From Lachnospiraceae bacterium (GTDB lineage Bacteria > Bacillota > Clostridia > Lachnospirales > Lachnospiraceae), in the NCBI GenBank assembly GCA_017436865.1, contig JAFSCH010000010.1, positions 1 through 34,929 on the forward strand: a stretch of DNA of 34,929 bases, read 5' to 3'. The translations under genes were made by a program, and so were the position numbers. The notes beneath the pieces are model-generated. The model searched no databases. It was given only the letters and a program-made list of their open reading frames with translations, and was not told the origin of the DNA. This document shows, one piece after another, positions 4,208 to 19,941 of this stretch. Position 1 is the stretch's first letter. Every line of letters begins with the position of its first letter.

Positions 4208-6247
4208 CTATTCTGTCAACACTTTATTTTCTACTTTTACATTCTTCTTATTGTTCATAAGAAGAATGCCTGCTACTAACGCAATTGCGCCTATGGTAGT
4301 CATAGCTACAAGCTCTATACTAGATAACTCTTCTTTTACTAATACTGGTAATACATTTTCTATGAGTTCTGGTTTTTTCATGCTGACAACCGATATAAAA
4401 TTATTCAGAAAATGTAATGACATGGTGATATAGATACTTCCACCCTTATAAACGATATACGCAAAGCACGCACCTAACATGGACGTTGGTAACAATTTCA
4501 CAACACTTCCATGGTATAATCCAAAAACAAGTGAGGACACAAGAATTGCCCAAACTGCTTTATATTTACTATTTAAGCTTCCAAATGTAAGTCCACGAAA
4601 CAGTAGTTCTTCTCCAATAGCCGGCATCACAGCAACTACAAAAACCACTGCTAAAAAGGAATGATTCATAAGCTCCTCAAAGGCCATATTCAAATTCTCT
4701 GTGCTCTGCGGAAACACTTTTGTTAAACCATACACTACAACAAGTTCTAAAAGGAAACATCCAATATATAAGAAAGCACTAGCAGGAATCATATATCGTT
4801 TTGGTGCCTTTAACGAAAAGAGCTCCTTTTTATCCGTCTTCATATACCATGTTAATAATAATGGTGTTGTCAATATGATAAGCTGAGTAACAATGGTACC
4901 TACAAATACGTCTCTTGCTGAGAAAATGCTTCCAATATATACTATAAGCATAAAAACAACAACGAGACAAATAACCACATCTCCTGTTGCAGGAATGGTT
5001 CCCTTTTTTATGTCGGAGCGTTTTTGGAATAAACGGAAGCTACGGAATCCGTCGGAAAACATAATATCTTCGCTGTCATACATTTTTGCAAGAATCCAAA
5101 TAGTTAAAACACTGTATCCCAGATTTACACCAACGGTTATTAATGCAAGTGACAGATCAAGATGCTGTGATAATACCTGTTTAATTAGTAACGATACATT
5201 AACAATTGGAATAATGGCATAGGTGTAATTCAGCTCTATCGTTGGAATCATTCCTACCATAGAAAGTATCATAATTACCAGCATAATAGGTGTCATGTAG
5301 TTATTGGCTTCTTTTGAGCTCTTTGCAAATACGCAAAAGCACATACTTAATGCGGTAACAAAAAGTGCTGTTGCAATGAGCGCAAACAATAACACCGGAA
5401 TACTACTTAAAATGGTTTCTAACGGAAATTGTGTCACTTCACTTGTCATATCTTCCGGAACTCCCAACATCAAAAAGAGAACCGAACCACCAATTGCCAG
5501 CAAGGAAACCGTGGCCGTTACACAAGCAACAATAGAAACAGCAATAAATTTACTCATAATCATCTGAAAATTCGTAACCGGAAGTGTTAATAAGGTTTCC
5601 AGTGTTCCTCGTTCCTTTTCTCCTGTGGTAACGTCCACTGCAGGGTAAAAGGCACCAAGCATAATCATGGAAATCAATACCATACCTATTGTTCCACCAT
5701 AATACATTCCTACACTTTCTGACTCACTTACAGAATCAACAGATTCATAAACTACCGGATATAAAAAGTCCTCTGTCAGTCCCTTTTTTTCTAGATTTCT
5801 TGCCATAATCTCATCACGATAGAGCTCTGCAAGCTCCTGCATGGTATCCTCTGCATAATTAGAATCCATGTTTGTCGAAGTATAATCTACCTGTATCTGT
5901 ATGTTGCCTTCCTTTTCGGTAAAGCTTACCCATACATCAGCCTCTTGGCGAACTGCTTCTTCATTACTCTGATCTGCTCCTTGAAAGGCTATCTCACTTT
6001 CAAGTTCCTCTTTTTCCTTCTCATAGAGAGCTTTTATCGGCTCCATGTATGCTTCATTCTCCAGACTATATCCGACAATCTGACTTTCCTGTGTTTGAGA
6101 TTCCATAAGCATTGTCACACCAAAGCTTACTCCGATTAACATTGCCGGATAAAGAATCATTGGCATTACTAACATCATAATCAATGTCTTTTTATCACGA
6201 AGGATTTCTGTCATTTCCTTCTTTACAAGAATTCCAATCTTTTTCAT
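4208..6247 (-). CDS. ABC-2 permease fused to a CPBP intramembrane protease domain
   Basis: This 679-residue membrane protein has two parts. Residues 1-400 form an ABC-2/NatB-type permease: one N-terminal helix (about 22-48), a large extracytoplasmic loop to about 180, then a helix bundle with the TTGEKERGTLETLL signature near 207-220. Residues 420-679 form a CPBP (CAAX protease/bacteriocin-processing) domain with all three motifs: EELLFRG (Glu546, Glu547, Arg551), FGLYHG (His579) and HFLNNF (His612). All catalytic positions are intact. The start overlaps the stop of the ATPase gene by 4 bp. The substrate is unknown; sodium extrusion or self-immunity are family possibilities, and peptide cleavage is inferred only from the motifs. 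Confidence 0.88.
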   Translation of the reverse strand: MKKIGILVKKEMTEILRDKKTLIMMLVMPMILYPAMLIGVSFGVTMLMESQTQESQIVGYSLENEAYMEPIKALYEKEKEELESEIAFQGADQSNEEAVRQEADVWVSFTEKEGNIQIQVDYTSTNMDSNYAEDTMQELAELYRDEIMARNLEKKGLTEDFLYPVVYESVDSVSESESVGMYYGGTIGMVLISMIMLGAFYPAVDVTTGEKERGTLETLLTLPVTNFQMIMSKFIAVSIVACVTATVSLLAIGGSVLFLMLGVPEDMTSEVTQFPLETILSSIPVLLFALIATALFVTALSMCFCVFAKSSKEANNYMTPIMLVIMILSMVGMIPTIELNYTYAIIPIVNVSLLIKQVLSQHLDLSLALITVGVNLGYSVLTIWILAKMYDSEDIMFSDGFRSFRLFQKRSDIKKGTIPATGDVVICLVVVFMLIVYIGSIFSARDVFVGTIVTQLIILTTPLLLTWYMKTDKKELFSLKAPKRYMIPASAFLYIGCFLLELVVVYGLTKVFPQSTENLNMAFEELMNHSFLAVVFVVAVMPAIGEELLFRGLTFGSLNSKYKAVWAILVSSLVFGLYHGSVVKLLPTSMLGACFAYIVYKGGSIYITMSLHFLNNFISVVSMKKPELIENVLPVLVKEELSSIELVAMTTIGAIALVAGILLMNNKKNVKVENKVLTE

Positions 6248-7279: not shown

Positions 7280-9298
7280 ATGAAAAAAATTATTATTATG
7301 TTAACTGCAATTACGTTAACTGTAAACTTAGCTGCCTGTGGCAAAACGCCAGCCGGCTCCGTAACTAATGAAGGTGTTTATGAAAATATGAATTCCGAAG
7401 TTGCCAAAGCTGGCAGTGTAGAAATGGAGCCTTATGTGTCTCCATTTTCCGAGTATTATACTGACCCTGATACCGGACTTGAGTTTAAGCTTCGGTCTAC
7501 TTCTTCTTGGGATACTGTTAATCAATACAAATATGAATCCCAATATATAACTTATGAAGGACCTTATTCCAATATTTTTTCTAATCAACTTACCTATTAT
7601 TTAAAGAAAGACAATTTTAATGATGATTACTATAATATTTTTGAACTCGGTCATCCCAGCCCACACCTAATTAGTTGTCACGAAGATTTCTTCTCGTGGT
7701 TAAAGGATGAAACTAATCCAGAATCTAACCAATGTAACTTCAAGCTATACAAATTTGCATTTGACAGCTCCGATTCAAGTATTCAGCTCGAAAAAAAATC
7801 TTTAAAAAAGAGTCTTTCACAAACAGATGATGTCGAAGAAGAAACGACTATCGCTTACTCTGAAGATTCTGATGATACGGAAAAATCTACTATCGAATAC
7901 ACCGATGACCAGCTAGAAAGATTTGATCGCTATCGTGAAGAATCTGATACAGAATTTATTGAAGATTATATGACAAATGACCTTGATCATTACGAAGAAG
8001 ACCTTGATACCATTATGGAAGCAATTGATGTTGCTATTCAAGAAGCCGAAAACGAGAAAGAAGAAAGACTTCGCTTGCGTACGAAAAGCGAAAAGCTTCC
8101 CGACTCCGAAAACATTGGCTATTTACTTACCTACGAATATAAGGATAGGGATGACTTAACGAAGGCCTGCGAACCTACTTACTTTAATATTATTTACGGT
8201 TATGAAAAAAGTCTTGATGAATTTTGTGTGTCTATAAGCGGAATTCATTATGCAAAAGAACACAATTATAATACAGATTCCTATGAAAATACAGCATATG
8301 ACTTTGAAAGCTATCTTGCTGCACTATTAAGCAACTTAGTCAAAGTTCCTAATAAAGAAGTACCACAAGAAGAAGGTTCTACCAAAACACTTTATGTACT
8401 AGAAAATATCAATTGTGGAAATACCATTAAAATATATGATAAAGATACTTATGAATTTACCCATAAACCAAGTTTTTACCTCTTTGAGAAAACCGATTAC
8501 GGTATCTTTGATGATACCTATAAAGAAAAATATTTTATCTGTGAATATAATTTACTGAATGATGATGAAATTGAATTCTTAGTAAAAGATTATCATTCAA
8601 AAGATTATTATGCTACTTGCTATACGGATAATTCGACTCCTTTCATTGCTCTATATTTTAAACCATTACTTGAATTAAAGCCCGGTGATCCAATTATTCG
8701 CTTTGAGCTAAAACGGGAAACAGAAGCATCTACAGAATTAATAGAACAAGTCATTGATGAACTGAACACTATGGAAGTCATCTATTCCTATACTGAGCAG
8801 TATTATAACCAGCAATTACCAGATCATAATAAAGAAATGAATATTCACACCGGAATGTTTAAGGAAAGTGATGTAAAAGCTTATTATACCTATGAACTTC
8901 TTAATGATGTTGGCATAAAGGTTACTGTTCCTGAATTTCATAATTCTGATTTTGATAACTCTGAAGGTATTAGTAATGTAGTAGAATATCTTGAAAGAAC
9001 AACAATTTTTGGATACTCCCAAATGTCTCTTGGTTTTTACAGATTTTGTCGTAGCAAGGAAGATATCGAAAGTGAAAAACAATATTCTAACATTATAGAA
9101 GAATGGGATATTAATAATCACCATTGCTATCTTTTAGGCAAGGAATACAATGATTCTTGTTATTATTATGTATATATAGAAGCAAAACCATCTCAATATA
9201 TAGAAGTTAGTATTATATTAGAAGGCTCCTATTACTATGACAAAGAAACTCACAAAGAAGCTATTAAAAATTTAATTTCTTTAATTAGAATAAAATAA
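7280..9298 (+). CDS. Large lipoprotein of unknown function
   Basis: The 672-residue product starts with a lipoprotein signal: lysines at 2-3, a hydrophobic stretch, and lipobox LAAC with lipidated Cys20. I do not recognise the rest. Residues about 170-265 are low-complexity and very acidic (Ser/Thr/Asp/Glu-rich, then a charged helical segment). Segments before and after are rich in Tyr, Phe and Asp and look beta-rich. No catalytic motif or repeat unit is evident. The ribosome-binding site AAAGGAGG is excellent. It is a single gene on the plus strand between two minus-strand operons and ends inside a 20-bp hairpin. The acidic linker suggests a cell-envelope protein. Confidence 0.75.
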   Translation: MKKIIIMLTAITLTVNLAACGKTPAGSVTNEGVYENMNSEVAKAGSVEMEPYVSPFSEYYTDPDTGLEFKLRSTSSWDTVNQYKYESQYITYEGPYSNIFSNQLTYYLKKDNFNDDYYNIFELGHPSPHLISCHEDFFSWLKDETNPESNQCNFKLYKFAFDSSDSSIQLEKKSLKKSLSQTDDVEEETTIAYSEDSDDTEKSTIEYTDDQLERFDRYREESDTEFIEDYMTNDLDHYEEDLDTIMEAIDVAIQEAENEKEERLRLRTKSEKLPDSENIGYLLTYEYKDRDDLTKACEPTYFNIIYGYEKSLDEFCVSISGIHYAKEHNYNTDSYENTAYDFESYLAALLSNLVKVPNKEVPQEEGSTKTLYVLENINCGNTIKIYDKDTYEFTHKPSFYLFEKTDYGIFDDTYKEKYFICEYNLLNDDEIEFLVKDYHSKDYYATCYTDNSTPFIALYFKPLLELKPGDPIIRFELKRETEASTELIEQVIDELNTMEVIYSYTEQYYNQQLPDHNKEMNIHTGMFKESDVKAYYTYELLNDVGIKVTVPEFHNSDFDNSEGISNVVEYLERTTIFGYSQMSLGFYRFCRSKEDIESEKQYSNIIEEWDINNHHCYLLGKEYNDSCYYYVYIEAKPSQYIEVSIILEGSYYYDKETHKEAIKNLISLIRIK

Positions 9299-9346
9299 TA
9301 AACAGCTCTGATACATTCTTTTCGTGATGTATCAGAGCTGTTTATT
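9297..9346. terminator. Strong bidirectional terminator (20-bp stem)
   Basis: A perfect 20-bp stem (9297-9316 with 9327-9346) and a 10-base loop lie between the convergent lipoprotein and HlyD genes. The arms begin AATAAACAGC and end GCTGTTTATT, so A/T-rich ends give a U-tract in both directions. It overlaps the stop codons of both genes. Confidence 0.85.
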
Positions 9347-11459
9347 AGTCTACTAAATTAATTTTCTCCAACAAGAATCGCAGTACGCTCTTCTGTTCTA
9401 CAACAATCTTTGTTTCACAATACATACCAAGTTTTAAATCGAGCTTTTCGCCAATCTTATTATAAAGCTTGGTATTATCAATGGATGTTTCTACAACATA
9501 GTATGCACTACCATCCTGGCTGTTTGCCTTTAAATCTGCAGAAACAAATTCTACCATACCTGTCATAGTTCCATATTCGCTGGAAGGATATGCTGCTACT
9601 TCATATTTTACTTCCATAGCTGGCTTAATCTTGGCAATATCTTGATTATCGATATAAGATTTAACCACAAAACCGTCTTCTTCCTGTGGAATAATGGTCA
9701 TAACCTGTGTTCCTGTTGCTAAATAATTACCTTCTACCAGCTCACTTGTCAGATTTACAACACCAGAAATTGGAGCCTTTACAATCGTATTAAGCTTTCC
9801 ATTTTCTACTTCTAAGATTCCTGCTTCTAATTCCTGTTTCTTCTGATTATAATTACTAATCTCTGTAGAAACGGTCTGAATCTCTGTCTGAATTACGTTT
9901 TCTCTATTATTCTGGATTCCCTGATCTATAATATTGCTCTGTGCAGTCTGTGCTTCTACCTTTGAACCATTTGTTGATAATATACTTTGCTGATACTGTA
10001 AGATTGATGCTTCGATTCCTGCAATAGTCTCCGTTTCTAAGCTAGACAAAGCTGTCTTTTTTTCCAATGTTTTAGCTGTAATAGCATCCTGCTTTGTTTG
10101 AATCAGACTTTCCTGCGCTTTTTTCTGTGCTTCTGCTGTTGTTTTTTCACTTTTGGCCGCAGAAATCTCTGCCTGCTTCTCTGCAATTAAGGCTTCATCT
10201 GTTGAAGTATCAATTACCTGAATTGTCGGCTGTTTTGGAGTATCTTCTTCATTTATGGTTGTATCTTTTTGTGTATCACTTGTATCATCCTTACTCGCAT
10301 CATTAGTAGATGTAATGGCATTTTCTTTTTTTGTATCTGTAGCAGAAATATTCGTATCCTCTTTACTTATATCTATGGCAGAAGCATTACTATCATCTTT
10401 GCTTGTATCCGTTATCTCACTTACTGGAGATGGTGTATCTTTTACAGCCTCTTCTGATGCAGGTGTTGGTTCTGACTTATCTTGCTGTGAATCTGATACT
10501 CCTGCTCCATCCTGAGTTGATTCATCATTGGTAAGACATTTATAAGTAATCTTTCGACTTCCTGTCATTGCTATTGGCATAGATACGATTTGAATATCAA
10601 TACGAGTAATCTGTGCCTGTGCGATTCTTGTCTTTGCATCATTAATTTCTTTTTCTGCCTGTGATATTTTGCTATCTGCATTTGAAATATCTGTTTTTGC
10701 TTCTTCTAAATCTTTTTTTGCCTGATCTAACTCTCTTTGCAGGCTTGCAAGGGTTGTATCATACTGAGATACGGTATTATTGTACTGTGTAATATAGTTG
10801 TTTAATTTTGCATAGTAATAAGAATCTGTCTCTGCAAAGGTATTGGTACGTGTTCTGATTCCTACTGATAACTGATTGAGCTTATTAATTTCTTCTTCAT
10901 AATAAGTAATCATCGTACTGCCTGATGCAAGCTTAGCATCATAAGCTTCCTTTTGCGTACTAAATTCAGACTGAGCCAAATCCATCTGTAAAGAAACGAT
11001 TTTCTGTCTTGCTGCATATTCGTCATAGTACGGATTGTCTGTATATCCGCTTAAATCTACACTATTATCCATCAGCCATGAAAGATACGCTTCCATCATA
11101 ACAAGTCTGTCTTCGTTCTGCCCCAACTGCATATTATAGTTATTCAACTGTAAGTCCCAGTTCTTTGCTTCTACTTCATATAACACATCGCCTTTATTCA
11201 CGATTTGTCCATCTACAATATTGCACTTCGTAATCGCACCTGCATAGGTATTCGTTACAATAGACGAATCCTCTCTTGCTGAAACAGTTCCTGTTCCCTT
11301 TACTACAATATCAATTTTAAAGAAAGCCGCCCATAAAAGAGCGACTACAACCATTACCATCAATAAATATATAAATAAAACAAAAAATGGATGAGGTCTT
11401 GATTCATATACCTCACGGCTGTCTGACATATCATTCATGTCTAACAGAATCGGATTCAT
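9345..11459 (-). CDS. HlyD-family secretion (adaptor) protein of the peptide exporter
   Basis: This 704-residue protein partners the C39-ABC exporter encoded just upstream (4-bp overlap). It has one membrane helix (about 27-47), a biotinyl-lipoyl segment with the VNKGDVLYEV motif, long coiled-coil regions (about 120-290 and 430-570), and a C-terminal beta-barrel with APISGVVNLT and MTIIPQEE. It is longer than usual. An insertion of about 110 residues (roughly 320-430), rich in Ser, Thr, Asp and Lys with imperfect SKDD/SKED-type repeats, interrupts the coiled coil and is probably disordered. It probably spans the envelope to guide exported double-glycine peptides, in the same transcription unit as the inducing peptide. 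Confidence 0.88.
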   Translation of the reverse strand: MNPILLDMNDMSDSREVYESRPHPFFVLFIYLLMVMVVVALLWAAFFKIDIVVKGTGTVSAREDSSIVTNTYAGAITKCNIVDGQIVNKGDVLYEVEAKNWDLQLNNYNMQLGQNEDRLVMMEAYLSWLMDNSVDLSGYTDNPYYDEYAARQKIVSLQMDLAQSEFSTQKEAYDAKLASGSTMITYYEEEINKLNQLSVGIRTRTNTFAETDSYYYAKLNNYITQYNNTVSQYDTTLASLQRELDQAKKDLEEAKTDISNADSKISQAEKEINDAKTRIAQAQITRIDIQIVSMPIAMTGSRKITYKCLTNDESTQDGAGVSDSQQDKSEPTPASEEAVKDTPSPVSEITDTSKDDSNASAIDISKEDTNISATDTKKENAITSTNDASKDDTSDTQKDTTINEEDTPKQPTIQVIDTSTDEALIAEKQAEISAAKSEKTTAEAQKKAQESLIQTKQDAITAKTLEKKTALSSLETETIAGIEASILQYQQSILSTNGSKVEAQTAQSNIIDQGIQNNRENVIQTEIQTVSTEISNYNQKKQELEAGILEVENGKLNTIVKAPISGVVNLTSELVEGNYLATGTQVMTIIPQEEDGFVVKSYIDNQDIAKIKPAMEVKYEVAAYPSSEYGTMTGMVEFVSADLKANSQDGSAYYVVETSIDNTKLYNKIGEKLDLKLGMYCETKIVVEQKSVLRFLLEKINLVD

Positions 11460-13657
11460 GCAACTGCCTCCTTATCTAATGATTGTTGTGATGCCAGCAT
11501 TGCGTATTTACCGCCTGCAAGCTTTAATTCCTCATGTGTTCCTGTCTCAATAATCTTTCCCTTTTCCATCACAAAGATTCTGTCACAATCTTTGATCGTA
11601 CTTAACCTGTGTGCAATAAAGATAGTAGTCATATCCTTACAGTATTCATGAATTGTCTTATCCAACGCTCTCTCTGTAATCGCATCCAGATTACTGGTTG
11701 CCTCGTCTAAAATCAAAATATCCGGTTTTTTTAACATTGCACGAGCAATCGCAAGTCGCTGTCTTTGTCCACCTGATAGATTAGCACCATTTTCTTCTAA
11801 CATGGTTTCATAACGAAGGGGTAATTCATTGATGAACTCATGTGCCTGTGCAAGCTTCGAAGCCTCGATTACATCATCTACGCTGGCATCATCTATTCCA
11901 AGCATGAGATTTTCCATAATCGTCCCACTGAATAAAAAGGTTTCCTGTGATATATAAGCAATCCTCTCTCGAAGTATTTCAAGCTGTATATCTTCTATAT
12001 TATTGCCATTGATTAAAATATTACCTTCCTCCGGCTTATACAGATGTAATAACAGCTTGGTTAAGGTCGTCTTGCCAGAACCGCTTTCTCCGACAAAAGC
12101 AACCTTTTCGCCCTTATGAATCGTAATATCCACGTCATCCAAAACCAGCTTTCTCGTTCCATAACGGAATTTCACATTCTGGAAGGTAATGTCACCATCT
12201 AAATGCTCCGGCGCAAGCTTATGTGCTTCTCTCTCATCCTTTTCTGCCTCTAAGTCAAGAATCTCGCCCAAACGCTCTGCTGCCACAACTGCTGTCTGCA
12301 TCTGTGGCTGAAGATTTATCAGATTCTTAACCGGATCAAGAAAATAACCGAGAAGAGAGTTAAAAGTAATAAGTTGTCCTATGGTAATCTCACCATGAAT
12401 AACTGATACAGCACCAACCCACAAAATAACAACACCACCGATTAGCTCTGTTGCGCCTTTTAACGAGGTCTGCACATTACCAACCCAGCTTAGGTTGAAA
12501 ATACTTCTTAATAATCTTACAAACCGTTTCTCTGTCTCTTGGTCTGCCTTTCTCTCCGCATTATAGGCTTTGATGGTCTGCATGCCATTTAAAGACTCTA
12601 CTAAATAAGAGGTTAACTGTGCATTATCCTCCATCGTCCGTTCATTTAACTGCTTATAATGCTTATTAAAAGTAAGAACGATAACCCCATATAATAAAAC
12701 CACAATCAGAGCCACACCGAACATCTTCGTATTCTGCATATAGAGAATAATCGCTCCTGCAACTACCATAAAGGTATCAATCATAATCGTTAATGTCGCA
12801 CCTGAAATAGCATCCCGTACCTTCGATGCATCATTAAAGCGGGAAACAATCTCTCCAACCTTTCTCGTTCCAAAAAAGCTCATAGGAAGCTGAATCACAT
12901 GCCGATAATAGCCAAGGAGAAGAGCTATATCGAGCTTCTGACTCAGATACAGCAGTAAATGCGAACGAAATGCATTCAACATTACCTTGAATATATTCAA
13001 TGCAATAATACCAATGGATAACGTCATTAATGTCTGTGACAGTCCATCCGGCAAAATATCATCCAGCAACGCCTGATAATAAAAAGCACCCAATATACCA
13101 AATACCGTATATATTAATGATGCGACAAAGATATGTAACAGCATTTTCTTCTGTGGTACGAGCAAATATAGGAAACGCTCAAATAATCCCTTTGTATCGT
13201 TACCCTTTTGAAAGGTTTCATTCTTTACTAAAAGAATTAATATACCTGTCCACTGATATTTTGGCGGCTTTCCTTCTGCGTGCATCTCACCAAAGAATTC
13301 CTCCGGCTTAAGCTTCACAATGCCTTTTCCGGGGTCAGCGATAACAACCTGCTTCTTCGTTATCTTGTGAATCACGACATAATGCATGAGCGAACCGTCT
13401 ACGACTACATGAGCGATACAGGGTAGTGGAAACTCGGAGAAGAAAGCTTCCTGATTACCCTTTACACCCTTGGCAGAGAAGCCTAATGCTTCTGCTGCCT
13501 TGATGACTCCATAGGCATTCGTTCCCTGCTTATCTGTGCCTGCAATTTCACGAATCTTCGATATGCTGATTCGATAACCATTCTGCTTTGATATGGTCGC
13601 AAGACAGGCTGCACCACAATCGGTTATGTCATGCTGTCTGACACAGTAATATTTCAT
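11456..13657 (-). CDS. C39 peptidase-containing ABC transporter (double-glycine peptide processing and export)
   Basis: This 733-residue bacteriocin-type exporter removes double-glycine leaders and exports the cores. The N-terminal C39 domain is intact: Gln8, catalytic Cys14 (DCGAACL), His92 (HYVVIH) and Asp108 (ADPGKG). Six membrane helices follow (about 165-450). The C-terminal ATPase has Walker A GESGSGKTT, signature LSGGQRQR, Walker B ILILDEATSNLD and H-loop IAHRLST. It lies 43 bp downstream of a double-glycine peptide gene and overlaps the HlyD gene. It is the only C39 transporter in the window, so it probably processes all three double-glycine peptides. Confidence 0.93.
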   Translation of the reverse strand: MKYYCVRQHDITDCGAACLATISKQNGYRISISKIREIAGTDKQGTNAYGVIKAAEALGFSAKGVKGNQEAFFSEFPLPCIAHVVVDGSLMHYVVIHKITKKQVVIADPGKGIVKLKPEEFFGEMHAEGKPPKYQWTGILILLVKNETFQKGNDTKGLFERFLYLLVPQKKMLLHIFVASLIYTVFGILGAFYYQALLDDILPDGLSQTLMTLSIGIIALNIFKVMLNAFRSHLLLYLSQKLDIALLLGYYRHVIQLPMSFFGTRKVGEIVSRFNDASKVRDAISGATLTIMIDTFMVVAGAIILYMQNTKMFGVALIVVLLYGVIVLTFNKHYKQLNERTMEDNAQLTSYLVESLNGMQTIKAYNAERKADQETEKRFVRLLRSIFNLSWVGNVQTSLKGATELIGGVVILWVGAVSVIHGEITIGQLITFNSLLGYFLDPVKNLINLQPQMQTAVVAAERLGEILDLEAEKDEREAHKLAPEHLDGDITFQNVKFRYGTRKLVLDDVDITIHKGEKVAFVGESGSGKTTLTKLLLHLYKPEEGNILINGNNIEDIQLEILRERIAYISQETFLFSGTIMENLMLGIDDASVDDVIEASKLAQAHEFINELPLRYETMLEENGANLSGGQRQRLAIARAMLKKPDILILDEATSNLDAITERALDKTIHEYCKDMTTIFIAHRLSTIKDCDRIFVMEKGKIIETGTHEELKLAGGKYAMLASQQSLDKEAVA

Positions 13658-13700
13658 GGGTTTGTGTCCTTTCTGTTTGTTTTAATGCCCAAACTATAAA

Positions 13701-13835
13701 TTAAGAAAATATTTTATTAAATTCTGTTACAATTTTGATTGTTAGTTTTTCAATAGCTGTTTTTTCTTTAGTCTGACCACCTGCTATTTGCTCCAATTCT
13801 TGTAACTTCAATTCTTTTAATTCTTTTGTATTCAT
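13701..13835 (-). CDS. 44-residue double-glycine peptide, probable inducing pheromone
   Basis: This short ORF has a strong ribosome-binding site GGAGG 6 bases before ATG. The leader runs to residue 20 and ends LEQIAGG, with the LKELxLxELEQIxGG pattern of C39 substrates. The mature part (24 residues, starting QTKEKTAIEK and ending EFNKIFS) has five Lys and three Glu, no Cys, and alternating hydrophobic and charged residues, suggesting a cationic amphipathic helix. It lies between the AgrC-like kinase gene (divergent) and the exporter, as inducing peptides do in class II bacteriocin loci. It is controlled by one of the three direct-repeat promoters, which implies positive feedback. It could instead be a small bacteriocin; the role is inferred. 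Confidence 0.75.
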   Translation of the reverse strand: MNTKELKELKLQELEQIAGGQTKEKTAIEKLTIKIVTEFNKIFS

Positions 13836-13875
13836 TATGAACCTCCACCCTTATTTATGTTTCTCCTTGCTTGCA

Positions 13876-13938
13876 ACTTTACATAATTTTTTTTATAATT
13901 ACAATGTACATGTGCTATTTGGTATTTTTCATGTGCTG
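13876..13938 (-). promoter_or_regulatory. LytTR-type promoter of the pheromone-exporter operon
   Basis: Minus strand, upstream to downstream: half-site CAGCAC (13933-13938), 15 bp, half-site TAGCAC (13912-13917), 7 bp, -35-like TTGTAA (13899-13904), 17 bp, -10 TAAAGT (13876-13881). The half-sites are 21 bp apart, two helical turns, the spacing typical of LytTR response regulators. The same layout occurs before the regulator gene and before precursor 1. The divergent kinase gene starts at 13963, so its own promoter must overlap this site. Confidence 0.75.
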
Positions 13939-13962
13939 ATTGAAAATGTTTGAGGTATTATC

Positions 13963-15285
13963 ATGAAATTAACTTATATACAATCTTTTTTATTAGATTT
14001 AATTAATAATTATATTGAATTTTTTTTATTAGAATTATTTACTACTGCTTTTTTTTCTTATAAATACCAAAAGCAATATTCTTTTCTACGCACTATTTAT
14101 TTATTGATTTATTTTGTGATTGCATTAATTCCTTCTATCCCTTATCATTTTCTTCTATTTAGAAGTTTAGAATTTATATATATTTTATTTGTTTCTGCTT
14201 TTCATTGGAAACACAGCTTATTATTCTTTATCAAGTATGTACTTTTTTATAATTTCCTATATTTTGCCTGTTCTCTTATCAGTACCATTATAAACATAAA
14301 TAATTCTACTAAGTTTATTACTACAGATATTTACATATATTATCAAACTATTATTAATACTACTTTTGTCTTTATTTTGCTAAATCTCTTTTTATATCAT
14401 AAACGCCTGAAAAACATAAATAAACATAGCACTTTATCCTTAAATTTCTCTTTGTTTGCTATTTCCAGCATTATTCTTCTTTTGTTTTACAACCGTTTTC
14501 TCTTAGAGAACCAAGAATTGAATGCTACCTTTTCTTATCTATTCTTGTTTGTTATAGGTGTTACCATATTCAACACTCATAACTACAGAAAGCTTATTGA
14601 AATGATGGATGAACAAATTCAGCAAAGGGTATTAATCGAGAAATACTCTATGCAGCTATCATATACAAAGGATGTTGATGAATCCTTAAAGGCTCTTTCT
14701 AAGCTTCGTCATGACTTCAAGAATCACCTGCTCATTATAGATGGATATGCAAGAAAGAATGAATTTGATAAACAGAAAGAATATATTTGCAAATTAAATG
14801 ATGAGATAGGTGCCACAAAAATCTATGACACCCAAAGCACATTGCTTTCCTCTATCCTGAATACCAAGAATGCTGTTTGCGAAAAACAAGGTATTATCTT
14901 ATCTGTAAATAACCAATTTCATACTATTAATATTGATGATTTTAACTTGATTACTATTCTTGGAAATATCTTAGATAACGCAATTACTGCTGCTGCGAAA
15001 ACCGGAAAAGGCAGGATTGATTTGTCCATGATACAATTGGACTCTTATCTGGAGATTACTTGCAAAAATAATCATTGTGAGAAAATCAAGAAAAGAAATG
15101 GTTCACTCCTGACCACTAAAAAAGTTGATACCGATAACCATGGACTCGGTCTTGGAAATGTCATAGATAGCGTTGAAAGATTACACGGACATTTGAATCT
15201 GGAATATGATGAGAAGTATTTTTCTATTAGGATTGTACTTCCGAATTATTCTGCTAAGGCAGAAAAGAAAGAAGCGGAAAACTGA
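13963..15285 (+). CDS. Membrane sensor histidine kinase, AgrC/HPK10 type (GHKL ATPase)
   Basis: This 440-residue kinase has about six N-terminal membrane helices (residues 10-205), a dimerisation/phosphoacceptor helix with His250 in LRHDFKNHL, and a C-terminal GHKL ATPase with N-box GNILDNAI (Asn335, Asn339) and G-box HGLGLGN (393-399). This is the peptide-pheromone receptor class that pairs with LytTR regulators. It lies divergent from the 44-residue double-glycine peptide, its probable ligand, and the only LytTR regulator nearby is at 18993-19793. Upstream GAGG serves as ribosome-binding site. Its base composition is clearly more AT-rich in the membrane half, as is common for such receptors. 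Confidence 0.9.
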   Translation: MKLTYIQSFLLDLINNYIEFFLLELFTTAFFSYKYQKQYSFLRTIYLLIYFVIALIPSIPYHFLLFRSLEFIYILFVSAFHWKHSLLFFIKYVLFYNFLYFACSLISTIININNSTKFITTDIYIYYQTIINTTFVFILLNLFLYHKRLKNINKHSTLSLNFSLFAISSIILLLFYNRFLLENQELNATFSYLFLFVIGVTIFNTHNYRKLIEMMDEQIQQRVLIEKYSMQLSYTKDVDESLKALSKLRHDFKNHLLIIDGYARKNEFDKQKEYICKLNDEIGATKIYDTQSTLLSSILNTKNAVCEKQGIILSVNNQFHTINIDDFNLITILGNILDNAITAAAKTGKGRIDLSMIQLDSYLEITCKNNHCEKIKKRNGSLLTTKKVDTDNHGLGLGNVIDSVERLHGHLNLEYDEKYFSIRIVLPNYSAKAEKKEAEN

Positions 15286-15306
15286 ATCTCTGCTTCTTTC
15301 TTTTCT
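15261..15306. terminator. Bidirectional terminator between kinase and radical SAM genes
   Basis: A perfect 15-bp inverted repeat (AGAAAAGAAAGAAGC at 15261-15275, complement at 15292-15306) with a 16-base loop overlaps the end of the kinase gene. The pyrimidine-rich 3' arm supplies the T-rich tail on the plus strand. It lies between convergent genes. Confidence 0.65.
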
Positions 15307-15315
15307 GTAAAAATC

Positions 15316-17145
15316 CTATTTTATATACTCTTCAAATGGTCCTATAAAAACATTTAAACCTTGCTTTACTAATTCATTTGTAAGAGCATAACCTGATAAA
15401 CGACTCTCTAATGAAGAAAATCTAAGACAACCATTTTCATCCTTTTTAACTAAACAATATTCATGAACACCATTTTGTCCTCTGTAATAACAAATTAATG
15501 GGGAATTTATATCCGGCAAATCATCTATATTTTTTATCTGTACAACACAGTCCCCCTCATTATATTTTTTTATTAGTGATTGAACATCATAAACATTCGG
15601 TCCAACATTTACTACTTCATTTTGTTCGCATGGCATGTTCTCTAATACCGAAGCGATTTCTTTATACGATACCCTTTGCGAAGAATGATTTAAATACTGA
15701 ATTACTGTCCAAACCACCGGATTCGTTTGATGATTATTCCTTGTTCCAACAATATGTTTCATCAACTCATTATATGCCTTGGGTATATTCCTTTTCACAT
15801 ACTCTACAAAGGATATCGCTAATGCAATTAATTTTTTGCGTATTTCACACATATATTCATTTGGCTGATACAATTCACCTGTATGTAAATATGAAATTGT
15901 CATACATTCTCCACGACAAATATTTTTACACCAGCAATTCTGACACTTAACAGATTGCTCCACATTGCACTTAATAAATTTGTTTCTCTTCTCTGAATCT
16001 ATTCCATCGAAAATGTTGCCAATGCAAAAATCTTCATTTCCGTTCATTACAGAACATGCATATAATTTACCATCATTATCAACAGCAATCCTGTTCTGAC
16101 CTGCATCACATCTACATTTTGCAATTAAGCCTTTTTGCACTGCCATCAAAATGAATCCGCCATATAAATCATCACCATTCAATATAGGCTTAATATAATC
16201 AAAATTCCCCATTTTTAACTGTTCTATAAATTGTTCTGTAAGTTTTCTATAACCTAACAATAAATTATCAATATTTATTTTATAGAGTGATGTTTCTGAT
16301 TGTCCAAAATCCCTTACAAGATGTGTACTAATTGCGTCACCTTTCTTAAGCGAATATAGATAGTTATATATTTCATCTACGTTTTCATTATTCTTTGTAA
16401 CAGTAACTGCAAATCCACAATGTTCATTTGTAGTAATATCAATTCCTCTTAACACATCATTAAATGTGCTTTTCCCATTATGATATATTCTATTTGAATT
16501 TCCTTTTTCATCACCATCAATGCTAATTCCATACAAAATATCTGAATGCTGTTCAAAAAAGCGTATATGCTTTTGATTCAGCATTGTGGCATTTGTCGGA
16601 AAAGTAATAATTACTTTTTTTCCCGTTCTGTTTCGTATTGTTTCACAATGATTTTCTATTTCCTGAATAAAATCAAATCTAAGTAATGGTTCACCTGAAC
16701 CAGCTAAATCAATCGTATACATCTTAGCGTTTTTTCCATAATCAAAAACCATAAAATCAATTGCCTTTATAGCTGTATCTATTGATATTTCCTGTTTTGG
16801 AAGATAATCTTCACCACCGAAGCAATATTTGCAATTCAAGTTACATCTTCGAGTCGCATGTATGCATAAAGTAAAATCACTCTTTCCCTCTAAAATATCC
16901 TTTTTGGATTCGTTCGCAAAATCCTCTTCTGCACTTTCTATTTTCTTTCTGCTACTTATTATTTTTTCATATTTTTCTATTTCTTCCGGGTAAAAATTTT
17001 CAATTATTTGCAAAAACTGTGATTCACTTAATTCATTTTTACTGCAAAAACTATCATAAATCTCTTTATTTATCAAAATACTATTATTAATATCTGTAAC
17101 ATGCATTATATAAAGCCCAAAATCGTTTATTAAATTAAATCTCAT
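15316..17145 (-). CDS. Radical SAM/SPASM peptide maturase with C-terminal C39-like domain
   Basis: This 609-residue enzyme probably modifies the two Cys-first precursors. The radical SAM cluster motif CNLNCKYC supplies Cys101, Cys105 and Cys108, and AGSGEPLL (148-155) is the SAM-binding segment. A cysteine-rich SPASM region follows (Cys344, 346, 364, 374, 393, 401, 404, 406, 410, 414, 433), able to hold auxiliary Fe-S clusters. Residues 1-90 may include a precursor-binding element. Residues about 470-609 resemble by eye the order of a C39 peptidase (helix, SYKEIASVL, VYDVQSLIKKY, SPLICYY, HEYCLV), but the catalytic Cys is replaced (PVVWTV where DCGAAC is expected). The start has GAGGAG upstream. 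It follows the CPBP gene by 35 bp. The crosslink type is not predictable from sequence. Confidence 0.88.
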   Translation of the reverse strand: MRFNLINDFGLYIMHVTDINNSILINKEIYDSFCSKNELSESQFLQIIENFYPEEIEKYEKIISSRKKIESAEEDFANESKKDILEGKSDFTLCIHATRRCNLNCKYCFGGEDYLPKQEISIDTAIKAIDFMVFDYGKNAKMYTIDLAGSGEPLLRFDFIQEIENHCETIRNRTGKKVIITFPTNATMLNQKHIRFFEQHSDILYGISIDGDEKGNSNRIYHNGKSTFNDVLRGIDITTNEHCGFAVTVTKNNENVDEIYNYLYSLKKGDAISTHLVRDFGQSETSLYKINIDNLLLGYRKLTEQFIEQLKMGNFDYIKPILNGDDLYGGFILMAVQKGLIAKCRCDAGQNRIAVDNDGKLYACSVMNGNEDFCIGNIFDGIDSEKRNKFIKCNVEQSVKCQNCWCKNICRGECMTISYLHTGELYQPNEYMCEIRKKLIALAISFVEYVKRNIPKAYNELMKHIVGTRNNHQTNPVVWTVIQYLNHSSQRVSYKEIASVLENMPCEQNEVVNVGPNVYDVQSLIKKYNEGDCVVQIKNIDDLPDINSPLICYYRGQNGVHEYCLVKKDENGCLRFSSLESRLSGYALTNELVKQGLNVFIGPFEEYIK

Positions 17146-17180
17146 TATTTTTTTACTCTCCTCTATGTAAATTAATCACT

Positions 17181-18002
17181 CTATTTCCAAAAGATACATT
17201 CCTCCGGCTTAAGCCTTTTTAAAATCATTAATGATATTATTATGTTCGGAATACTAAATAATAACACAGGTATTATTGTATAAAAGACTGTCACTGAATT
17301 CATTGTTTTTGCCACATCCACGTACTGTATATCCGAAACTCCTCTCTGCAAAAATAGCATTGCTAATGATGCAATAAAATCATTCAGAGCATGAATTATC
17401 ATACATATCCAGATATTCCTTGTCTTCAAATAAATAGCTGCTAACAACATACCAAATGCTCCCGTAAATAGAGTTTTGTTTGTCATTTGCACTATCACTG
17501 ATATCGAATTTATCCCAATGTTAAATAAACATTCCCATACATGTATAAAGCCAAAAACAAATCCACTTACCACTAGCACCCAACATAAACCTGCTTTGTT
17601 TTTTGGCAAAACCTTTACCAATCCATTTACAATAATCCCTCTAAACAATACTTCTTCTGAAAAACCAACACACAAAGTGAATATAAATAAAGAAATAAAT
17701 AAATATAACCAATTATCATTTAATTTTCTAGCATTTTCTATACATAATACAGATGTAATACTCTCTAATATAAACTGATAAAAACTTCTTGAAATCGCAT
17801 ATGCGCCGCTCTTTTTAGTCCATATAAAAATTTCTCTTCCTGCTACATAATACATAATTCTAAGCATAATTAATCCCATGAACAATCTATTAGGTATCAT
17901 TCCCCATGTGCTATCTCCTATATCAAAATGAATACCAATTGCATAGGTAATCAATGTCGCAATCATTACAATATTAGGATGTTCACAAATATTCTTTTTC
18001 AT
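17181..18002 (-). CDS. CPBP-family intramembrane metalloprotease (immunity or processing)
   Basis: This is a multi-helix membrane protein of 273 residues from the second of two adjacent ATG codons, chosen because AAGG is then better spaced. The CPBP motifs are intact (numbered from the first ATG): SEEVLFRG (Glu117, Glu118, Arg122), FGFIHV (His155) and HALNDF (His205). CPBP proteins in bacteriocin loci commonly act as immunity proteins or process peptides. Here the gene lies between precursor 1 and the radical SAM gene in the same direction. A decayed relative lies at 23152-23712, sharing nearly identical blocks (GINSIS, AAIYLKT) and the same C-terminal ending. Confidence 0.85.
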   Translation of the reverse strand: MKKNICEHPNIVMIATLITYAIGIHFDIGDSTWGMIPNRLFMGLIMLRIMYYVAGREIFIWTKKSGAYAISRSFYQFILESITSVLCIENARKLNDNWLYLFISLFIFTLCVGFSEEVLFRGIIVNGLVKVLPKNKAGLCWVLVVSGFVFGFIHVWECLFNIGINSISVIVQMTNKTLFTGAFGMLLAAIYLKTRNIWICMIIHALNDFIASLAMLFLQRGVSDIQYVDVAKTMNSVTVFYTIIPVLLFSIPNIIISLMILKRLKPEECIFWK

Positions 18003-18090
18003 CATTTACCTTTCCACATATACTATATCATTTTTTGCTATTTCTATAACTTAAACCCAAAATTATTATTATATTTTCTATTTGTAACAA

Positions 18091-18116
18091 GAGATAGCTA
18101 GAAATCTAGCTATCTC
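18091..18116 (-). terminator. Hairpin after precursor 1 (partial terminator or stabiliser)
   Basis: A perfect 11-bp stem GAGATAGCTAG/CTAGCTATCTC with a 4-base loop starts 10 bp past the precursor stop codon. On the minus strand only TTGTT follows, so it is unlikely to terminate fully. Such hairpins after precursor genes often raise precursor mRNA over downstream genes. The rest of 18006-18125 is featureless. Confidence 0.6.
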
Positions 18117-18125
18117 CTCAATACA

Positions 18126-18290
18126 TTAACTATGATCAGCTGCAAGACTCATAAAGAAAAATATTATAGCAGCCTTTTCTTCAGCACTAAGACCGTTTGA
18201 ACATCCACCATTAATTGCTAACTGGCATTCTTCTGATAATTCTACAAGACCATTATTTGCTAACTTAGCATCTTCTGTATATCTTACCAT
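18126..18290 (-). CDS. RiPP precursor peptide 1 (54 residues, double-glycine leader, Cys-first core)
   Basis: This small ORF has a strong ribosome-binding site (GGAAGGAG). The leader (residues 1-29) contains LVELSEECQLAINGG, a C39-type double-glycine leader. The 25-residue core begins CSNGLSAEEK, has a strongly hydrophobic middle (AAIIFFFMSLAA) and ends DHS. The only core Cys is at position 1; another Cys is in the leader at residue 22. The leader is nearly identical to that of precursor 2, while the cores share only Cys-Ser. It lies at the head of the CPBP-radical SAM operon, so it is the likely substrate of that enzyme and of the C39 exporter. An unmodified bacteriocin is the alternative. 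Confidence 0.82.
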   Translation of the reverse strand: MVRYTEDAKLANNGLVELSEECQLAINGGCSNGLSAEEKAAIIFFFMSLAADHS

Positions 18291-18450
18291 TCTTCTCACT
18301 CCTTCCTTTTGCTATTTACACTCCCTCGAAAAAGCTGTATACTTACCTAGGTACTTTTTCATAAGTGCTGTTTTGGTTGGAATCCGATGAGGTATGCGCA
18401 TAGTTCATCGGATTCTTTTTTATATAAAACAGATTTTTATCTGCCTTATA
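18198..18450. repeat. Copy 1 of the duplicated precursor leader plus 5' untranslated region
   Basis: From the Cys-Ser codons of precursor 1 back through its leader and about 160 bp of upstream DNA, this block is nearly identical to 18734-18983. Sequence identity stops abruptly at the core-coding part and at about 18450. It contains a ribosome-binding region, CCTAGG palindrome, and an 11-bp perfect hairpin GAATCCGATGA (18380-18390)/TCATCGGATTC (18405-18415). A possible extra promoter, -35 TTATGA (18359-18364) and -10 TATACA (18336-18341) on the minus strand with 17-bp spacing, is conserved in both copies. Confidence 0.85.
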
Positions 18451-18466
18451 TCGTTTTACTTTTTAA

Positions 18467-18529
18467 AAGTTATACTATTGTTTGTATTTTTACAATATCT
18501 TTGTGCTGTTTGGGTGTTTACTCGTGCTA
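18467..18529 (-). promoter_or_regulatory. LytTR-type promoter of precursor 1
   Basis: Minus strand: half-site TAGCAC (18524-18529), 15 bp, half-site CAGCAC (18503-18508), 7 bp, TTGTAA (18490-18495), 17 bp, -10 TAACTT (18467-18472), with an alternative TATAAC (18469-18474). It matches the promoters at 13876 and 19829 in every spacing. It would produce a long (about 170 base) structured leader before the precursor ATG. Confidence 0.75.
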
Positions 18530-18589
18530 TTCTGCATTAATTTAAACGTTAATCATTCATTCTGATAGTTTATCACAATATTTATCCAT

Positions 18590-18627
18590 AAAAAAATGGT
18601 TCTGAATAAATTATCCAAAACCATTTT
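18590..18627 (-). terminator. Terminator of the response regulator-precursor 2 unit
   Basis: On the minus strand stem AAAATGGTT/AACCATTTT, loop of 17 bases, followed by seven T (plus-strand A at 18590-18596). It lies 44 bp after the precursor 2 stop codon and upstream of the precursor 1 promoter, so the two precursors are probably separate transcripts. Confidence 0.75.
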
Positions 18628-18670
18628 ACTTATATTTTAAGAAAGAACTTTGTATATTTTTCTTATTTCA

Positions 18671-18826
18671 TTATAATCTAATTGGTCCCCATGGTCCCAA
18701 TCTTATTATATCCGACCAATCTATGTTATTCTTCGAACAACCACCATTTACTGCTAACTGACATTCCTCTGACATTTCTACAAGACCATTATTGACTGAC
18801 TTAGTATTCTCTGTATATCTTACCAT
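18671..18826 (-). CDS. RiPP precursor peptide 2 (51 residues, double-glycine leader, Cys-first core)
   Basis: This small ORF has AGGAG upstream. The 29-residue leader matches precursor 1 almost throughout (LVEMSEECQLAVNGG). The 22-residue core starts CSKNNIDWSD and ends in a Gly/Pro/Trp-rich, basic tail (LGPWGPIRL); it contains two Trp and one Cys at position 1. It lies 166 bp downstream of the response regulator gene, likely co-transcribed with it, and is followed by a good terminator. Different cores on one leader suggest either a two-component peptide or diversification on a shared maturase. The product's structure and activity cannot be inferred from sequence. Confidence 0.82.
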   Translation of the reverse strand: MVRYTENTKSVNNGLVEMSEECQLAVNGGCSKNNIDWSDIIRLGPWGPIRL

Positions 18827-18983
18827 TCTTATTCACTCCTTTAACTATTTACACTCCCTCGAAAAAGCTGTATACTGTCCTAGGTACTTTTTCATAAGTG
18901 CTATTTTGGTTGGAATCCGATGATGTATGCGCATAGTTCATCGGATTCTTTTCTATATAAAACAGATTTTCATCTGTCTTATA
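18734..18983. repeat. Copy 2 of the duplicated precursor leader plus 5' untranslated region
   Basis: This is the partner of 18198-18450, offset by 533-536 bp. It carries the same hairpin GAATCCGATGA (18913-18923)/TCATCGGATTC (18938-18948), the same CCTAGG segment and the conserved -10-like TATACA (18869-18874, minus). It ends about 10 bp past the response regulator stop codon, marking a duplication edge. The hairpin is followed by a T-run on the plus strand, i.e. antisense to the genes, so it is not a terminator for the precursor transcript. Confidence 0.85.
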
Positions 18984-18992
18984 CCATCTTCT

Positions 18993-19793
18993 CTACTCCT
19001 CCGTAATACCCATTCTCTCTCTTTCCTTTTCCGCCCGCAGTCTGTATATTTTATCCATGTGTCTGTCACGCATGTCATTATGATACTTGCGGCTTACAGG
19101 AACCTCTAACGCTCCTGTTACAACTATTACTTTTTCCTTGACTTCCCATATATGATTAAAGTTCACAATATAGCCCTGATGAACATAGAAAAACACGTTT
19201 GGATTCAATCTGTCGTAAATGTCAGAAAGTGTCTTATAGCAAGTCAGCTCACCCTCTGTTGTGTGAAGAATACATTTATTACGCAGTTTTTCGATATAGA
19301 TTATCTTCTTTACAGGAATGATAAACGGCTCTTTTCCGAACGAAATCTGCAAATAGGTATCCTCTGCCATCTCTCTGTCCTTGATATAGCGAACCTCACG
19401 AATACATTTATTGAGCATTTCTTTTAACTCCAAATAGGAAACCGGCTTTTCTAAGTAGCCGGATGCATTAACCTTAAAGGCATCAAAGGCATAATTGCGA
19501 TGACTGGTTACAAAACATATGATTATTTCTTTATTGAATTTACGAATTTCCGTTGCAATTTCCATGCCTGTGTATACGGGCCAATCCTCAGACATTGGCA
19601 TTTCTACATCCAAAAGAATTATGTCAAGATTTTTGCCATTTTCCCGCATATCATCTAACAGCTCTATGCCGGAATGATACTTTGATACATGCAGCTCTAC
19701 CTCTTCCTCACTCATAAAGGCTTTCAAATATCCGCAGATGTCTTCAATCCAATATTCCTCATCATCACAGATTGCCATTTCAAAGACTCTCAT
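18993..19793 (-). CDS. LytTR-family response regulator
   Basis: This 266-residue regulator has an N-terminal receiver domain with acidic pocket CDDEE (Asp10, Asp11), phosphoacceptor Asp62 (ILLDVEMP) and Lys116 (LEKP). A C-terminal LytTR DNA-binding domain covers about residues 145-250 (IIYIEKLRNKCILHT and VHQGYIVNFNHI are typical). This is the AgrA/ComE/PlnC class, which binds paired direct repeats 21-22 bp apart, as seen three times in this locus including upstream of this gene. The likely partner kinase is at 13963-15285. The first ATG is used (GGGGA upstream); an internal Met6 is a possible alternative. Confidence 0.92.
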   Translation of the reverse strand: MRVFEMAICDDEEYWIEDICGYLKAFMSEEEVELHVSKYHSGIELLDDMRENGKNLDIILLDVEMPMSEDWPVYTGMEIATEIRKFNKEIIICFVTSHRNYAFDAFKVNASGYLEKPVSYLELKEMLNKCIREVRYIKDREMAEDTYLQISFGKEPFIIPVKKIIYIEKLRNKCILHTTEGELTCYKTLSDIYDRLNPNVFFYVHQGYIVNFNHIWEVKEKVIVVTGALEVPVSRKYHNDMRDRHMDKIYRLRAEKERERMGITEE

Positions 19794-19828
19794 TACTCTA
19801 TCCCCATTCTATTCTTCATTTTGGTGTT

Positions 19829-19891
19829 ATTTTAGCTTTTATATATACAATTTACAATATGCTTGTGATATTTGGTATCAAAAACGTGCTA
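19829..19891 (-). promoter_or_regulatory. LytTR-type promoter of the response regulator gene
   Basis: Minus strand: half-site TAGCAC (19886-19891), 15 bp, half-site TATCAC (19865-19870), 7 bp, -35-like TTGTAA (19852-19857), 17 bp, -10 TAAAAT (19829-19834). The start would fall near 19822, about 29 bases before the ATG. This predicts autoregulation. The second half-site has one deviation (T for G). Confidence 0.75.
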
Positions 19892-19941
19892 ATTGGTTTT
19901 CTGTTATTTTACCTCAAAGTCGCTATTTTTGAAGTATCAGC

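Follow-up and report, generated by a model that had tools for sequence, protein, structure and literature searches.

Class II bacteriocins of the plantaricin A and ComCDE type are governed by three-component regulation, which comprises a linear double-glycine peptide, an AgrC/HPK10-type kinase, a LytTR regulator, a C39 exporter and a repeated operator, typically direct repeats with a 21-bp period. Ribosomally synthesized and post-translationally modified peptides (RiPPs) made by radical S-adenosylmethionine (SAM) enzymes can also stand under quorum-sensing control, as in the streptococcal RaS-RiPPs streptide and tryglysin, which PMC13361665 places under Rgg/SHP control. In radical SAM RiPP enzymes, reading of the leader is mostly credited to RiPP recognition element (RRE) domains (PMC8326336), and for secretion exporters inactive C39 domains have been described (PMC6363468). 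The locus reported here lies in a 34,929-nucleotide stretch (the window) of a Lachnospiraceae bacterium (contig JAFSCH010000010.1) and joins a radical SAM/SPASM maturase and two small precursors to a double-glycine peptide, a kinase, a regulator and a C39 exporter.

We consider it probable that this is a quorum-controlled radical SAM RiPP locus of bacteriocin type, representing a new and narrow family, inducible by a pheromone and equipped with RRE-like and C39-like domains that read the leader. Apart from the apparent pseudo-protease domain on the maturase, its building blocks are ordinary.

The maturase and its C-terminal domain

Full-length homologues of the maturase are rare and were found in two other genomes: G308, from the same genus as the window's own genome (G000), at 61% identity, and G276, from another genus, at about 38–40%. 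The radical SAM motif (C101-C105-C108 in the window maturase) and all seven SPASM cysteines (346, 364, 401, 404, 410, 414 and 433) are invariant in the three members. Membership of the radical SAM/SPASM enzymes follows from PF04055 (50.1 bits, cut-off 29.5) and TIGR04085 (50.2 bits, cut-off 27); Pfam's own SPASM model gives 16.0 bits, under its cut-off of 21.5. The initial annotation, made from the DNA letters and open reading frames, had recognized this enzyme and overlooked what follows its SPASM region, where convergent but individually weak lines of evidence make the last ~140–150 residues look like a degenerate C39-peptidase domain.

Residues beyond the CxxCx5CxxxC SPASM motif number 195 in the window maturase, compared with 35–98 in 80 of 80 related loci. 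All three members keep the domain; of 115 related enzymes, the other 113, with open frames of 452–540 aa, show no match to it. This 115-enzyme search, like the family and class searches below, scored the best three or four first-look candidates per genome and may have passed over a weakly similar member; the genus, precursor-profile and G276-genus searches scored all candidates. On the G276 homologue, the C39 model PF03412 (cut-off 22 bits) scores 24.2 for the domain alone, 20.3 for the whole protein and 25.2 in a genome search, and a Pfam scan of the G308 domain returned just sub-threshold, unrelated names. An hhalign comparison of the C-terminal alignment with 13 C39 sequences reached an E value of 5e-5, against 0.074–0.46 for eight controls, and structure comparison supports the C39 fold class.

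At the catalytic Cys/His/Asp positions, the window maturase carries P/E/none, the G276 homologue S/Q/none and the G308 homologue S/E/none; the C39 domain of the window's exporter keeps Cys14, His92 and Asp108. Judged by these residues, the maturase domain is apparently catalytically dead. In its apparent C39 fold class and its lack of catalytic residues, it is like the C39-like domain (CLD) that HlyB and other type I secretion exporters carry. The CLD, however, is N-terminal on an ATP-binding cassette (ABC) exporter, whereas the present domain is C-terminal on a radical SAM enzyme that modifies peptides. Searches of open-licence PMC articles brought up no account of a C39-like domain joined to an enzyme that modifies RiPPs.

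For the remainder of the enzyme, PapB (NF047865) gives the best NCBIfam score in all three members. The top curated families, all under cut-off, are PapB, nif11-type, SCIFF and quinohemoprotein maturases and an orphan ScfB relative. GG_samocin (TIGR04148) and lachnocin (NF038170) are, by NCBI's names, also radical SAM maturases of peptide loci; the window maturase falls far under both cut-offs (66.6 versus 300 bits and 80.5 versus 550 bits). The nearest solved structure is 5wgg, which we take to be CteB; the entry is titled for thioether bond formation and aligns with maturase residues 16–442 at an E value of 2.2e-48. Like the SCIFF/ranthipeptide maturases CteB and PapB, the enzyme combines a radical SAM core with a seven-Cys SPASM region. 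The three members differ from them in scoring 174.8–196.8 bits against the PapB cut-off of 340, in their C-terminal C39-like domain, and in their double-glycine-type precursors with Cys at +1.

A quick tree, in which long branches were flagged, unites the three members in one clade (Shimodaira–Hasegawa-like approximate likelihood ratio test, SH-aLRT, 100). This clade is nested in a set of seven (SH-aLRT 99) whose other lineages come from G805, G087, G127 and an Acetatifactor metagenome-assembled genome. Another G000 enzyme (L003) groups in the tree with rows that are presumably SCIFF-type enzymes. The idea that the maturase is a SCIFF enzyme in a chance neighborhood was rejected on its clade, the curated cut-offs and the C-terminal domain.

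A leader-reading role for the C39-like domain must be weighed against a reading in which the domain is real and the leader is read by the N-terminal RRE alone, as in CteB, the extra domain being structural or docking the exporter. We think this unlikely but worth keeping in view. It draws on the 5wgg alignment, which begins at residue 16, and on the RRE that forms the CteB N-terminus (PMC8326336). A low-confidence model likewise places a strand-strand-strand-helix-helix-helix arrangement at residues 2–78, a region (1–84) that structure comparison hardly reached. Between the window and G276, moreover, the C-terminal domain has diverged more (21–22% identity) than the whole protein. Retention of the domain in every member, set against its absence of matches in related enzymes, argues the other way, as does substrate recruitment, the use of inactive C39 domains described in PMC6363468.

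Locus layout, relatives and a shared operator

Every gene that the initial annotation listed over 10.5 kb (9345..19891) was recovered in place from open reading frames (ORFs), Pfam and NCBIfam, and all of them except the kinase lie on the minus strand. The features are as follows.

9345..11459, minus: HlyD-family accessory protein of the exporter (704 aa; PF13437 66.3 bits), with a 4-base overlap with the ABC gene
11456..13657, minus: peptidase-containing ABC exporter, C39 plus ABC (733 aa; TIGR01193 710 bits, cut-off 523.85; PF03412 121.9 bits)
13701..13835, minus: double-glycine peptide, likely a linear pheromone (44 aa; leader MNTKELKELKLQELEQIAGG, 24-aa product QTKEKTAIEKLTIKIVTEFNKIFS)
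13892..13941, minus: LytTR-type box, exact AGCAC-N16-AGCAC, in the gap that separates the divergent kinase from the pheromone/exporter operon, upstream of the latter
13963..15285, plus: AgrC-like sensor histidine kinase (440 aa; PF14501 65.6 bits, PF14689 41.3 bits)
15316..17145, minus: radical SAM/SPASM maturase (609 aa; PF04055 50.1 bits, TIGR04085 50.2 bits)
15316..15738, minus: degenerate C39-peptidase-like domain at the maturase C-terminus (about residues 470–609, ~140–150 aa)
17181..18005, minus: CPBP (Rce1-like) membrane protein, putative immunity protein or membrane protease (274 aa; PF02517 66.6 bits)
18126..18290, minus: precursor 1 (ATG at 18290, 54 aa; leader MVRYTEDAKLANNGLVELSEECQLAINGG, core CSNGLSAEEKAAIIFFFMSLAADHS)
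18293..18457, minus: 165-nt repeat upstream of precursor 1 (palindrome GAATCCGATGA...TCATCGGATTC; half-box ACCAAAACAGCAC at 18365)
18483..18532, minus: LytTR-type box, exact, upstream of precursor 1 (repeat search and motif model)
18671..18826, minus: precursor 2 (51 aa; leader MVRYTENTKSVNNGLVEMSEECQLAVNGG, core CSKNNIDWSDIIRLGPWGPIRL)
18826..18990, minus: 165-nt repeat, second copy (half-box ACCAAAATAGCAC at 18898)
18993..19793, minus: LytTR response regulator (266 aa; PF04397 64.6 bits, PF00072 49.8 bits)
19845..19894, minus: LytTR-type box, one mismatch across two AGCAC words, upstream of the regulator gene

All parts of three-component regulation are present: the double-glycine peptide, AgrC/HPK10-type kinase, LytTR regulator, C39 exporter and repeated operator. 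The peptide scores 16.6 bits against PF03047 ComC (cut-off 20.4), and the kinase 30.5 bits against NCBIfam AgrC, under its cut-off. The arrangement, including the 21-bp repeats, matches plantaricin A and ComCDE, except that the regulated structural peptides here sit with a radical SAM maturase. Unlike the streptococcal RaS-RiPPs with their Rgg/SHP control (PMC13361665), the peptides here would be controlled by a membrane kinase, a LytTR regulator and a peptide cut by C39.

Quorum-sensing control had been proposed from the gene content, and the repeated operator had escaped notice. A repeat search run without a prior motif found a 44-nt repeat family with copies at 13899, 18490 and 19852 (66–75% identity to the first copy). 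At these sites, the minus strand carries an AGCAC-N16-AGCAC direct repeat of 21-bp period. The repeat is exact at 13912, ahead of the pheromone/exporter operon, and at 18503, ahead of precursor 1; the copy at 19865, ahead of the regulator, has one mismatch. The exact word appeared once over 60 Markov simulations of the window (0.017 per window). G308 has one exact box (L010:914), which precedes both its LytTR ORF and its precursor. A 50-nt model from the four box sites was applied to ten genomes, with 150 of 2494 candidates scored in G000 (4.2 Mb) and 150 of 1689 in G308. Among these, G000 has just the three locus sites at E values up to 1.4e-9 (next, 0.084), and G308 a single site at 4.6e-11 (next, 0.37). 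The four sites score high by construction; the lack of others among the scored candidates is informative. A half-box (ACCAAAAYAGCAC) also lies inside the 165-nt repeat of each precursor. On sequence grounds, the box set fits a self-amplifying pheromone circuit limited to this locus, and the earlier view of one regulated system gains from the same box at exporter operon, precursor 1 and regulator.

The relatives retain part of this layout. In G308 (L010), the gene order is CPBP, LytTR-only ORF, precursor, CPBP and maturase; the 20 kb read of its 26-kb contig contains no exporter, and C39 domains like that of the window lie at the ends of two other contigs. In G276 (L008), regulator, HlyD, C39-ABC, CPBP, maturase and precursor all sit on a single 17-kb contig, interspersed with transposase-like ORFs. 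A PF02517 protein adjoins the maturase in all three loci, and maturase and leader-type precursor lie close together in all three genomes. The initial annotation would have been overturned by maturase homologues located away from such precursors; because 2 of 2 relatives carry the precursor beside the enzyme, that objection falls away. Two of its elements do not generalize. One precursor, rather than a pair, was seen beside the enzyme in each relative, and a linked kinase and pheromone were not seen beside the precursor in either, the best G308 match to the kinase being 24% identical.

The family is narrowly distributed. The maturase was found in 2 of 299 genomes of the family sample (E ≤ 1e-60) and in 2 of 38 of the genus sample (E ≤ 1e-45), one in each case being G000, in 1 of 391 of the class-wide sample (E ≤ 1e-80; G000 itself), and in 1 of 5 genomes of the genus of G276 (G276 itself). 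A scan of genome contigs with the single maturase protein gave no relative; with an alignment (A2), it gave at least 381 relatives among 591 stretches, of which the best 80 were kept, with a top identity of 32% among the matches listed. The same kind of scan found no relative on viral contigs, and 28 plasmid records match at E ≤ 1e-20, none covering more than 80% of the query. G000 has an estimated contamination of 7.68%, so the contig's host assignment is not certain; the family is also present in a congener of G000.

This evidence bears on two other accounts of the locus. The roles might be reversed, with the cyclized Cys1 peptide signaling to the AgrC-like kinase and the 24-residue amphipathic peptide being a class II bacteriocin that shares the exporter, an arrangement we judge rather improbable. 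AgrC-type kinases classically sense cyclic peptides, and the 24-residue peptide heads the exporter operon. Yet pheromones adjoin and diverge from the kinase in plnABCD/comCDE-type loci, the position of the double-glycine peptide here, and the RiPP unit occurs in G308 without an orthologous kinase. Still less probable, in our estimate, is that two unrelated systems adjoin each other, one a quorum-sensing cassette of a class II bacteriocin (pheromone, exporter, kinase and regulator) and the other a radical SAM RiPP unit. Although kinase and pheromone are unlinked to the RiPP unit within the stretches of G308 and G276 that were read, the same box marks exporter operon, regulator and precursor 1, recurring at the G308 precursor operon, and in G276 a single contig carries the exporter and HlyD as well as the regulator, CPBP, maturase and precursor.

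Around the locus, a plus-strand gene adjoining the HlyD gene (7280–9298) encodes a protein of 672 aa whose N-terminus looks, by eye, like that of a lipoprotein and which has no Pfam/NCBIfam family at E values up to 0.1. A minus-strand ORF of 126 aa (23216–23596), 3.4 kb past the regulator, matches PF02517 (CPBP; 68.2 bits); by eye, it resembles the locus CPBP gene and is perhaps a remnant. Rfam at gathering scores matched one tRNA in the window.

Precursor peptides and their leaders

Precursors 1 and 2 are paralogous, their leaders being identical at 23 of 29 residues; past the initial CS, the cores show no clear likeness by eye. The relationship extends to the DNA: over 99 nt of the leader region the two are 86% identical, and the 165-nt upstream repeats (18293–18457 and 18826–18990) are 90% identical. 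The pair is best described, from these alignments, as a leader-and-promoter cassette that was duplicated and its core changed. Each 165-nt repeat also contains one copy of a 36-nt near-palindrome (18380–18415 and 18913–18948) with a T-run next to it on the plus strand; it may be a terminator, an operator or an RNA hairpin. Paralogy, the common upstream repeat and conservation in two other genomes rule out chance ORFs.

Across the three genomes, the leader motif is [ST]EECQ[LI]A[ITV][NE]GGC, and the core starts at Cys. The narrower consensus proposed initially, SEECQLA[IV]NGGCS, is broadened accordingly, and in this wider form it does lie beside the enzyme in the relatives. Columns invariant in the four aligned precursors include E19, E20, C21, Q22, A24, G27, G28 and C29 (alignment numbering), so that both the leader Cys and Cys1 of the core are constant. 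The family had been called unrecognized, and this holds: searched at E values up to 10, the four precursors stay under every Pfam and NCBIfam cut-off, the sole library matches being YqfI (E 1) and CyaY (E 0.14), both far under cut-off. A four-precursor profile run on 397 family genomes (G308 not among them) gave strong matches just in G000 (two) and G276; matches in four further genomes (E 0.005–0.01) were taken as chance, about four being expected.

According to PMC6363468, C39 pockets hold leader residues −4, −7 and −12 in a crystal structure, canonical C39 leaders are hydrophobic at these positions, and the ComA leader consensus is L(−12), E(−8) and L(−7). The pheromone leader, with L−12, E−8, L−7 and I−4, is canonical in this sense. 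The precursor leaders are not: they have L/M at −12, Cys at −8, Gln at −7, L/I at −6 and I/V/T at −4. They represent a modified double-glycine type, compatible with a second leader reader.

By enzyme kinship, the product is most likely a ranthipeptide-type thioether at Cys1. PapB links Cys to Asp or Glu, as described in PMC9413430. That precedent, together with Cys1 being the only core Cys in three of the four precursors and an Asp or Glu between core positions 6 and 12 in all four, favors a single Cys1–Asp/Glu thioether. It is very improbable that the precursors are unmodified class II bacteriocins and that the enzyme acts on another substrate: the single Cys in three of four cores and their resemblance, by eye, to short hydrophobic bacteriocin peptides would suit that account, but enzyme and leader co-occur closely in all three genomes and Cys1 and the leader Cys never vary.

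Several other peptide loci were also observed. In G087 (L173, 3774–11579), a peptide with a DIDGG|CTVYYW junction accompanies a radical SAM/SPASM enzyme, a BtrH_N protein (30.5 bits, cut-off 29.7) and a C39-ABC exporter, with adenylation-like and carrier-protein-like ORFs alongside by eye; a gene first read by eye as HlyD-like had no Pfam match, and the name was dropped. The Acetatifactor locus has a Cys-rich peptide near the related enzyme, and G127 (L174, 1977–2381) has three tandem short Cys-rich peptides of CCNT type (RLAKAKAGE..CCNT..CCNTY..GC) upstream of its related radical SAM enzyme. A second peptide locus of G000 (L111, G000:C61:1-17585) contains two tandem radical SAM/SPASM enzymes, AgrB, and AgrC-like and LytTR regulator genes, and, judged by eye, an ABC pair and more ORFs of radical SAM type. 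In G278 (L177), two double-glycine peptides (2049–2312 and 4587–4796), one with repeated YGVP units, flank a C39-ABC exporter.

Proposed course and its meaning

The sequence itself establishes the gene content, most of the domain identities, the missing catalytic residues, the box at three sites of the locus, and the linkage of maturase, leader and CPBP gene in three genomes. For a pheromone-inducible radical SAM RiPP locus, the modification, processing, induction and activity of the peptides are predicted to be connected as follows. The C39-ABC/HlyD exporter would cut and release the 24-residue linear peptide, which the AgrC-like kinase would then sense. Next, the LytTR regulator would bind the 21-bp-period boxes and raise expression of three sets of genes: its own operon, the precursor units and the operon of pheromone and exporter. 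The maturase would dock the precursor leader, probably through its N-terminal RRE-like and dead C-terminal C39-like domains, and install one or more crosslinks starting at core Cys1, most likely a sulfur-to-side-chain-carbon thioether to a downstream Asp or Glu. Retaining the leader until the peptide is fully modified may be a further role of the dead domain. The active C39 domain of the exporter would finally cut after Gly-Gly and secrete the product, with the CPBP protein serving in immunity or in a membrane processing step.

Several results weigh against this reading. PF03412 has no match in the window or G308 maturase, and the whole G276 protein stays under its cut-off. When just two C39 sequences were used, hhalign gave no significant result (E 0.069, probability 0.8%), and searching the PDB with a profile of the C-terminal alignment gave eight matches at E values up to 10, none of them a C39 chain. 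In the structure comparison, Z lies in a middling range and the top row is a papain-like toxin, not a C39 protein; both structure models have low confidence (mean predicted local distance difference test scores, pLDDT, of 53.3 and 52.1). The three members fall short of the PapB-type ranthipeptide cut-off of 340 bits (195.8, 174.8 and 196.8) and of the SCIFF maturase cut-off of 425 bits (TIGR03974; 147.7, 152.3 and 158.3). Cleavage of the precursor by this exporter is not certain because the leader departs from the C39 consensus at Cys−8 and Gln−7, and a common product structure is not obvious because the two cores are unlike after CS. On the regulatory side, neither the word search nor the 50-nt model finds a box at the G276 locus, G308 yielded no orthologous kinase, and its regulator ORF is the LytTR part only. 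The one-mismatch word is expected 1.25 times per window, with four seen; because such copies are common by chance, the 19865 site rests on the longer shared sequence and not on the bare word.

More tentatively, and with somewhat less than even confidence, we propose that the maturase captured a C39 domain that lost catalysis and now serves as a second leader reader, so that exporter and maturase would bind the same leader through related domains in a RiPP family that a linear pheromone induces. Because the copies of Pfam and NCBIfam used do not include the precursor family, routine annotation likely misses it; radical SAM/SPASM enzymes that extend about 195 residues past the CxxCx5CxxxC SPASM motif offer a new marker for genome mining. 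If the proposal is correct, this natural fusion of a C39-like domain to a maturase would be a new way of handing a substrate from maturase to exporter, with a built-in order in which the peptide is modified first and cut and exported later.

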